From the NCBI RefSeq assembly GCF_024298825.1, contig NZ_CP101153.1:744001-808000 (forward strand): DNA of 64,000 nt, read 5' to 3'. This document shows, in pieces, positions 30,518 to 32,800 of this stretch; positions within the stretch are counted from its first letter, which is position 1, and each line of letters starts with the position of its first letter. The position numbers and the translations under genes are program-made. Source of the stretch: Haloglomus salinum. GTDB taxonomy: Archaea > Halobacteriota > Halobacteria > Halobacteriales > Haloarculaceae. A model generated the notes under the pieces. That model saw only the letters and a program-made list of their open reading frames with translations, made no database searches and was not told where the DNA came from.

Positions 30518-31483
30518 ATGAGCGAACGAATCAGCACCCGCGAGTGGGACCCGACCGAGACGGAAGCCGAGGAGAGCGACGAGAAACACGGCTGTCCTGA
30601 GTGTGGCGGCGATATCGCGAACGACACGGAGCACGGGGAGGTCGTCTGCCAGGACTGCGGCCTCGTGGTCGACGAGGACAACATCGACCGCGGCCCCGAG
30701 TGGCGCGCGTTCGACGCCCAGGAGAAAGACGAGAAGAGCCGCGTCGGTGCCCCGACGACCAACATGATGCACGACAAGGGGCTCTCGACCAACATCGACT
30801 GGCGCGACAAGGACGCCTACGGCAACAGCCTGTCCAGCAAGCAGCGCCAGAAGATGCAGCGCCTGCGCAAGTGGAACGAGCGGTTCCGCACCCGCGACTC
30901 CAAGGAGCGCAACCTCAAGCAGGCCCTCGGGGAAATCGACCGGATGGCTAGCGCCTTGGGCCTCCCGGACAACGTCCGCGAGACCGCCTCGGTCATCTAC
31001 CGCCGCGCGCTCGACGAGAACCTGCTCCCCGGCCGCTCCATCGAGGGCGTCTCGACGAGTGCCCTCTACGCCGCGGCGCGACAGGCCGGCGTCCCGCGGA
31101 GCCTCGACGAGGTCGCCAGCGTCTGCCGCGTCGAGAAGGACGAGATCGCCCGGACCTACCGCTACGTCGCACGCGAACTCGGCCTCGAGATCGCCCCCGC
31201 GGACCCGGAGAGCTACGTGCCCCGGTTCGCCTCCGACCTCGAACTGAGCGAGGAGGCCGCCGCTCGCGCCCGCGAACTCCTCTCGAACGCGAAGGAGGCC
31301 GGCATCCACTCCGGGAAGTCACCGGTCGGGCTGGCCGCGGCCGCCGTCTACGCCGCCTCGCTCCTGACCAACGAGAAGGTGACCCAGAGCGAAGTCGGCG
31401 AGGTCGCGGACATCTCCGAGGTCACCATCCGCAACCGGTACCACGAACTGCTCGAAGCCGAGCAGGGACTGGCGATGGCATAA
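30518..31483 (+). CDS. tfb: Transcription initiation factor IIB
   Basis: A 321-residue general transcription factor that bridges TBP and RNA polymerase. The zinc ribbon uses C26, C29, C44 and C47 (CPECGG.. VVCQDCGLV). The B-reader/linker is GPEWRAFDAQEKDEKSRVGAPTT. Two cyclin folds follow; the first has RNLKQALGEIDRMASALGLP and SVIYRRALDENLLPGRSIEGVSTSALYAAARQ, and the second ends with KSPVGLAAAAVYAASLL, VTQSEVGEVADISEVTIRNRYHELL. Haloarchaea carry many TFBs; which paralog this is cannot be told. AT-rich leader and tail regions surround it. Confidence 0.96.
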   Translation: MSERISTREWDPTETEAEESDEKHGCPECGGDIANDTEHGEVVCQDCGLVVDEDNIDRGPEWRAFDAQEKDEKSRVGAPTTNMMHDKGLSTNIDWRDKDAYGNSLSSKQRQKMQRLRKWNERFRTRDSKERNLKQALGEIDRMASALGLPDNVRETASVIYRRALDENLLPGRSIEGVSTSALYAAARQAGVPRSLDEVASVCRVEKDEIARTYRYVARELGLEIAPADPESYVPRFASDLELSEEAAARARELLSNAKEAGIHSGKSPVGLAAAAVYAASLLTNEKVTQSEVGEVADISEVTIRNRYHELLEAEQGLAMA

Positions 31484-31510
31484 GCCAACAGACCCCAACA
31501 TAACCCATCT

Positions 31511-31571
31511 AATCTAGAACTATATAGATTATATCAGTCATTTTCCATCTAACCTACAGTTCTATCAGTCA
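31511..31571. terminator. AT-rich inverted and direct repeats after tfb
   Basis: AATCTA (31511-31516) and TAGATT (31525-31530) form a 6-bp stem 28 bp past the tfb stop. A degenerate direct repeat follows, with CCATCTAA..CTA..TATCAGTCA occurring in both halves (about 31505-31540 and 31545-31571). T-rich runs here would suit archaeal termination. A CTAG site is at 31514-31517. Confidence 0.4.
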
Positions 31572-31697: not shown

Positions 31698-31753
31698 AGG
31701 AGGGTGCGGCCCGGTTGGGAAAGCGTCTAGTCCCCCGCCACCGACGCCCGCAT

Positions 31754-32800
31754 GTGCAGACCGAGCACGTCGTCCACGTCGCCGACGCGCGCGAGGCCGT
31801 GGCGGACCTCGGTGACGACGCGGTCGACCTCGTCGTCACCTCGCCCCCCTACCCGATGGTGGAGATGTGGGACGAGTCGTTCACTGCGCAGGACCCGCGC
31901 ATCGGGGAGGCGCTCGACGCGAACGACGGCGACCACGCGTTCGAACTGATGCACGACCTGCTCGACGAGGTGTGGACAGAGCTCCCGCGCGTCGTCAGCG
32001 AGGGCGGCATCGTCGTGGTGAACGTCGGACCCGCCACGCGCACCCTCGACCGGTTCCGGCAGTACCCCAACCACGAGGCCATCAGCCGGCGACTGCGGGG
32101 CCACGGCTTCCAGTCGCTCCCGGGCGTACTGTGGCGCAAGCCGACGAACAGCGCCGCGAAGTTCATGGGCAGCGGGATGCGCCCGCCGAACGCCTACGTC
32201 ACGCTCGAACACGAGCACCTCCTCGTGTTCCGGAACGGTGGGCTCCGCCAGCCCGACCCCGGGCAGCGCGACGCGGCGGCCTACTTCTGGGAGGAGCGCA
32301 ACGCGTGGTTCTCGGACCTCTGGGAGTTCACCGGCGAGCGCCAGGCGCTGTCGGGCGAGGCTGCCGAGGCGCGCGACCGCTCGGGCGCGTTCCCGCTGGA
32401 CCTCCCGCTGCGGCTCGTCCGGATGTTCTCCGTCTACGGCGACACCGTCCTCGACCCGTTCTGGGGCACCGGGACGACGAGCCTCGCGGCGCTCGTCGCG
32501 GGCCGCTCCTCGGTGGGCATCGAGCGCGACCCCGACCTCGTCGGTGCGTTCGACGCGCGCGTGGCCGACGCCCCCGACCTGTCGGCGGACCTCGTCCGCG
32601 AGCGACTCGACCGGCACCGCGAGTTCGTCGCCGAGCGCCGCGCCGACGGGAAGACGCTGCAGTACGATGCCGAACACTACGACTTCCCGGTCGTCACGAA
32701 GCAGGAGCGGAACCTCCGGCTGTACGAGACGGCCGAGGTCACCTGCGAGGACACGGCTGGCGGGAACCGGCGCTACGTGGCCCACCACGAGGCCGTGTGA
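31754..32800 (+). CDS. DNA methyltransferase, probable CTAG-specific N4-cytosine type (Zim-like)
   Basis: A 348-residue beta-class DNA methyltransferase. The catalytic motif IV, VVTSPPYPMVEMWDESF, comes at residues 28-44, before the SAM motif I DPFWGTGTTSLAAL near residue 234; this order and the SPPY sequence mark N4-cytosine enzymes. GVLWRKPTNSAAKFMGSGMRPPNAYVTLEHEHLLVF and YFWEERNAWFSDLWEF match my memory of the conserved haloarchaeal CTAG enzyme (HVO_0794 type). The start is taken as GTG at 31754, since upstream sequence in frame is not family-like. No restriction partner is adjacent, so it is likely a solitary methylase. Confidence 0.85.
   Translation: MQTEHVVHVADAREAVADLGDDAVDLVVTSPPYPMVEMWDESFTAQDPRIGEALDANDGDHAFELMHDLLDEVWTELPRVVSEGGIVVVNVGPATRTLDRFRQYPNHEAISRRLRGHGFQSLPGVLWRKPTNSAAKFMGSGMRPPNAYVTLEHEHLLVFRNGGLRQPDPGQRDAAAYFWEERNAWFSDLWEFTGERQALSGEAAEARDRSGAFPLDLPLRLVRMFSVYGDTVLDPFWGTGTTSLAALVAGRSSVGIERDPDLVGAFDARVADAPDLSADLVRERLDRHREFVAERRADGKTLQYDAEHYDFPVVTKQERNLRLYETAEVTCEDTAGGNRRYVAHHEAV

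Follow-up and report, generated by a model that had tools for sequence, protein, structure and literature searches.

The window that we analyzed is a stretch of 64,000 nucleotides from the genome of Haloglomus salinum, and it contains a DNA methyltransferase gene lying between genes for a transcription initiation factor and a type I 3-dehydroquinase. The features to which we refer below are as follows.

30518–31483, + strand: transcription initiation factor TFB, the upstream neighbor (PF00382, 5.8e-46; NF001658, 3.6e-127)
31514–31517, no strand: the farther of the two upstream CTAGs, within an AT-rich stretch just past the TFB gene; not conserved
31717–31724, + strand: BRE-like A-rich block GGGAAAGC, directly 5' of the promoter CTAG; invariant in the window and in three close relatives (L001, L002, and L003)
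31727–31730, no strand: CTAG in the TATA-box slot of the putative core promoter (TCTAGT, 31726–31731)
31754–32800, + strand: orphan CTAG m4C DNA methyltransferase gene (Zim/HVO_0794/cHG U family, by homology), GTG start, 348 aa
32859–33563, + strand: type I 3-dehydroquinase, the downstream neighbor (PF01487, 1.3e-42)

The product of the methyltransferase gene matches Pfam N6_N4_Mtase (E = 5.1e-29), the PADLOC type II methyltransferase PDLC03283 (3.8e-149), and PDB entry 2zie (5e-37). In its translation, an SPPY motif (TSPPYPM) near the N terminus is followed later by DPFWGTGT (DPFWGTGTT), which is the motif order of the beta class. The start is GTG 31754, and homologues share both this start codon and the short N terminus. 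Among the best 80 haloarchaeal loci fetched, the orthologues are 57–92% identical to the H. salinum protein (92% in Haloglomus halophilum, falling to about 57%), and a match to the methyltransferase is present in 354 of the 391 genomes of the class. The H. salinum genome (4.19 Mb in a single contig) carries a single full-length copy. No restriction endonuclease was found among the neighbors tested (TFB, type I 3-dehydroquinase, Usp, DHQ synthase II, and a glycosyltransferase), and the locus thus lacks the adjacent endonuclease gene by which a restriction-modification system is recognized.

By similarity and by its place in the protein tree, the enzyme belongs to the same family as HVO_0794 (zim) of Haloferax volcanii, which is homology group U of Fullmer et al. 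(2019). It shares with HVO_0794 the features of a beta-class m4C enzyme, the SPPY and DPFxGxGT motifs, a single gene copy, the absence of a restriction partner, and a CTAG-poor host. It is 62%–63% identical to the Haloarcula proteins and about 60% identical to the likely Haloferax-type orthologues, and all of these fall in one continuous tree. The HVO_0794 member makes C(m4)TAG, as established by gene deletion and SMRT sequencing (PMC5867850), and M.Hsi33800I of Haloarcula sinaiiensis, whose genus carries the promoter site described below, acts at CTAG (PMC8388548). We conclude that 31754–32800 encodes the haloarchaeal orphan m4C CTAG methyltransferase, with its specificity assigned by homology. 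The assignment made in the original prediction, that of a CTAG methylase, is thus upheld by the N6_N4_Mtase match, the range of orthologues, the single copy, and the orthology with the HVO_0794 group.

The window contains 11 CTAG sites (at 1683, 14860, 17582, 30948, 31514, 31727, 33560, 38590, 43211, 43303, and 53449), whereas dinucleotide-preserving shuffles give 78 ± 8 and independent bases would give 184; the original prediction had counted about ten against 150–200, which is close to these values. It had also described the window as CTAG poor, but the scarcity belongs to the genome. In 864 kb of H. salinum DNA (the window together with loci L264–L303) there are 209 sites, or 0.24/kb (0.17/kb in the window), where a second-order Markov model predicts 667 (observed/expected 0.31) and independent bases would give 2.9/kb. 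CTAG under-representation in all haloarchaea has already been published (PMC6471742). GATC is as depleted as CTAG in the same 864 kb (observed/expected 0.29), and a search of the H. salinum genome for the MethyltransfD12 (Dam-type) family gave no matches, so under-representation does not track a methylase that is present. We therefore do not regard CTAG poverty as peculiar to the window, and the link that had been drawn between this poverty and self-regulation of the gene is weak.

CTAG density is about 8-fold higher in non-coding DNA (0.84/kb) than in predicted coding DNA (0.10/kb). The two sites that had been predicted upstream of the methyltransferase gene, at 31514 and 31727, both exist, although the nearer leaves 23 bp before the start codon and not 24. 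The presence of two sites in this 270-bp gap, where 0.23 are expected, is mildly unusual, and it is only mild because of the density of CTAG in non-coding DNA; at least two sites are found in 3 of 105 comparable gaps (200–400 bp). As there are also nine such clusters in the 864 kb, clustering around the gene was rejected as a signal. It is the position of the 31727 site, rather than the number of CTAGs, that chance does not give. Elsewhere in the genome, three groups of three CTAGs lie within 6 kb at 90395–96007 of the contig (in the 0–100 kb block), and five lie within 300 bp at about 1516068–1516371. These local clusters are possibly linked to origins, by analogy with those published for orc1/cdc6 regions.

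The C of the 31727 site is at −27 relative to the start codon, and the site is part of the arrangement GGGAAAGCG-T-CTAG-T, in which an A-rich, BRE-like block is followed by CTAG. Haloarchaeal genes are mostly leaderless and have a BRE (CGAAA) and a TATA element upstream (PMC4983044), and in our own gene calls for the window and L001–L080, TATA-like words peak at −31 to −27. The CTAG and the A-rich block therefore occupy the positions expected of the TATA box and the BRE, respectively. In the three relatives from the Haloglomus clade (L001–L003, of which L001 is 92% identical), CTAG is found at −27 or −28; it lies in GGGAAAGCG.CTAGT, the one long block that is invariant in the upstream region, the remainder having diverged. 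A search of Rfam with the region upstream of the gene gave no matches to structured RNA. These observations place the enzyme's own target site inside the probable core promoter of its gene, with a presumed transcription start. The original prediction was to be abandoned if the promoter CTAG proved not to be conserved: the 31727 site is kept in the Haloglomus clade and recurs elsewhere, but the 31514 site has no counterpart in L001, L002, or L003, and we rejected it as part of the element. The stretch that contains the 31514 site (31505–31571, AT-rich and just past the TFB gene) includes two direct repeats, both imperfect: CCATCTAAYCTA..., of 21 nt at a distance of 40 bp, and TTMTATCAGTCA, at a distance of 31 bp. 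This CTAG lies in one of them, and the stretch is absent from close relatives.

We collected 225 distinct upstream regions of methyltransferase homologues and counted the 201 that have a clear ATG or GTG start. CTAG starts at −31 to −26 in 33 of the 201 and at −22 in one more, and in 30 of the 33 an AA step ends 2–6 nt before the CTAG. The rest of the 110 bp upstream contains only scattered single CTAGs at background level. At the non-coding density of the H. salinum genome, about one CTAG would be expected in the 201 × 6 positions of this slot. Among 928 other genes of the same loci with at least 60 bp upstream, whose starts were taken from a simple ORF caller, none has CTAG at −31 to −26, and in the H. 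salinum genome CTAG is found at −30 to −27 in only 2 of 586 genes, one of which is the methyltransferase gene itself. When all 256 tetramers are compared for enrichment in the slot, CTAG ranks first (26/136 versus 0/928), although the p value of this enrichment ignores kinship, which was handled by parsimony alone, and the raw Fisher p overstates the case because the homologues are not independent. The carriers belong to three families: Haloglomus, Halomarina, Haloarcula, and four further genera (g5, g7, g11, and g15) in the first (f1), two genera (g83 and g90) in a second (f4), and one (g68) in a third (f7). Traced on a tree of 147 homologous proteins, the state of the slot takes a minimum of 9 changes with IQ-TREE (quick) and 10 with FastTree, compared with 0–2 for other 6-bp windows on the same tree. 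The counts and the number of changes together indicate that the slot position is maintained, or recurs, beyond what chance would be expected to give. Gain and loss are indistinguishable by parsimony; if CTAG was gained repeatedly, selection would be implied, and if it was retained in the slot since deep time although the genome avoids it, constraint would be.

The slot contains no CTAG in about five of every six homologues, and the gene can therefore function without this feature. None of the Natrialbaceae, Haladaptatus, or Halobacterium homologues sampled has it (the slot reads GCTAAGG in Natrialbaceae and CCTACGTG in Halobacterium), and it is missing from the four likely Haloferax-type promoters in our sample (L176, L179, L200, and L204). 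The slot of the methyltransferase gene shows enrichment of CTAA and CTAC as well. The TATA slot of this gene is generally weak, so that CTAG could be one tolerated variant, and the pattern could reflect chance and shared descent, with a TATA slot that drifts around a TA step and a neutral CTAG that has been kept in a few clades. Such an origin would suit the close kinship of many carriers (at least 11 are Haloarcula) and the similar flanking contexts seen between some clades (AAGACACTAG). It is harder to reconcile with the avoidance of CTAG throughout the genome and with the background genes, in which CTAA, CTAC, and CTAT occur in the slot but the fourth base is never G. The excess of changes on the tree over other windows also argues against it, and deep retention would imply constraint instead of neutrality. 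We consider neutral drift an improbable explanation, but one that deserves some weight. In Natrialbaceae (L043, L048, L058, L070, and others), the region from −45 to −1 is a strongly conserved block, GACGAAGRAGCTAAGGG..GACGCCGACAGTGTG, in which CTAA replaces the slot CTAG; the block runs to the start codon and so exceeds a plain core promoter.

The interpretation that we put forward, and to which we give an even chance, is that the methyltransferase adjusts the transcription of its own gene by methylating the TATA element in the promoter. The core promoter would consist of a weak TATA element around the CTAG, with GGGAAAGC as BRE, TCTAGT as the TATA-like sequence, and a leaderless start about 27 bp downstream. 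The methyltransferase would methylate both strands of the promoter CTAG, and the methyl state would alter the recruitment of polymerase by TBP and TFB, most likely lowering transcription. Negative feedback of this kind would hold the enzyme at a level sufficient to keep the few genomic CTAGs methylated, and replication, by leaving the promoter hemimethylated, would re-open it for a short time. From the sequence and its comparison among relatives, we infer the identity of the promoter, the methylation of the 31727 site, and the existence and sign of the effect on transcription. The idea of self-regulation in the original prediction thus gains from the conservation of the 31727 site and from its recurrence at this position in other genera, while the regulation itself keeps the status of a proposal. 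We are somewhat less confident, giving it slightly less than an even chance, of the broader statement that an orphan archaeal methyltransferase sets its own level by m4C in a TATA element, as an epigenetic feedback switch that is read by TBP and TFB without a dedicated regulator and that has been repeatedly selected, or kept over deep time, in haloarchaea.

The same positional data would fit steric blocking of TBP and TFB, in which the methyltransferase or another CTAG-binding protein represses the gene by occupying the promoter CTAG and methylation is not the signal. Methyltransferases that act as repressors through an N-terminal DNA-binding region are known, as described for M.SsoII (PMC3978073; PMC12707154). 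The H. salinum protein, however, begins with the catalytic fold and lacks an N-terminal regulatory extension of the M.SsoII type, and a lone 4-bp site would make a poor operator; repression by occupancy alone therefore seems to us distinctly unlikely. The promoter CTAG might instead serve a general coupling to replication or the cell cycle, with the methyltransferase gene as one of many targets and no tuning of its own level. CTAG clusters upstream of orc1/cdc6 genes (Blow et al., 2016; PMC4752239), the reported enrichment of CTAG upstream of genes (PMC11001535), and the 8-fold higher density outside coding DNA in the H. salinum genome are consistent with such a role. Upstream enrichment does not predict, however, that the TATA-slot position should be specific to the methyltransferase gene, as it is in comparison with the 928 and 586 genes described above, and we give general coupling a very low probability.

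CfrBI, LlaDII, and AhdI are known cases in which a methyltransferase gene is controlled through methylation of the enzyme's target site in its promoter (PMC12707154). These systems and the H. salinum gene have in common the presence of the enzyme's target word in its own promoter. They differ in that CfrBI, LlaDII, and AhdI are restriction-modification systems of bacteria, in which the promoters are of the sigma-factor type and the methyltransferase has a partner endonuclease, whereas the H. salinum gene encodes an orphan archaeal enzyme, has a TATA/BRE promoter, and is subject to a presumed effect on transcription. Methylation control of the H. salinum promoter would, by analogy, represent the CfrBI/LlaDII principle in an archaeal orphan enzyme. 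CcrM of alphaproteobacteria is likewise an orphan methyltransferase that is thought to regulate genes through sites in their promoters, and ccrM has GANTC sites of its own near its promoter. CcrM differs in being a bacterial m6A enzyme that is controlled by CtrA and tied to the cell cycle, and its regulation is not homologous. The CTAG clusters at orc1/cdc6 genes, for which regulation by CTAG methylation has been proposed, involve the same enzyme family and sites in regulatory DNA, but they concern replication origins rather than the promoter of the methyltransferase gene itself (Blow et al., 2016; PMC4752239). In Hfx. lucertense, regulation by CTAG methylation in upstream regions was proposed, but no correlation with expression was found (PMC11001535). 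In the freely accessible literature that we searched, we found no earlier description of CTAG in the promoter of the enzyme's own gene. The likely Haloferax-type promoters differ from that of H. salinum in lacking the slot CTAG, and the specificity of the H. salinum enzyme is assigned by homology to HVO_0794.

The enzyme family was known; the striking observation is the gene-specific, recurrent position of one CTAG site in the TATA slot. Deletion of the methyltransferase gene in Hfx. volcanii caused no growth defect, and the roles guessed for this widely conserved enzyme are replication, repair, and regulation. A gene-specific site in the TATA slot provides a defined and simple place at which to test the effect of m4C on archaeal transcription, and in Haloarcula, where the site is present and CTAG methylomes are published, the model can be tested at once. 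The position does not extend to orphan enzymes in general. We rejected the idea that such enzymes regularly have their target word in the promoter, as we saw no GATC in the TATA slot of haloarchaeal Dam-type genes with a readable start, and these genes have normal TATA boxes. A different arrangement of sites was seen in genus g60, where two loci (L208 and L223) have a consensus-like TATA box upstream of the methyltransferase gene, followed by a pair of CTAGs at −15 and −8. The pair is identically phased in the two loci, with positions counted from the likely ATG, and L223 has three further CTAGs farther upstream.
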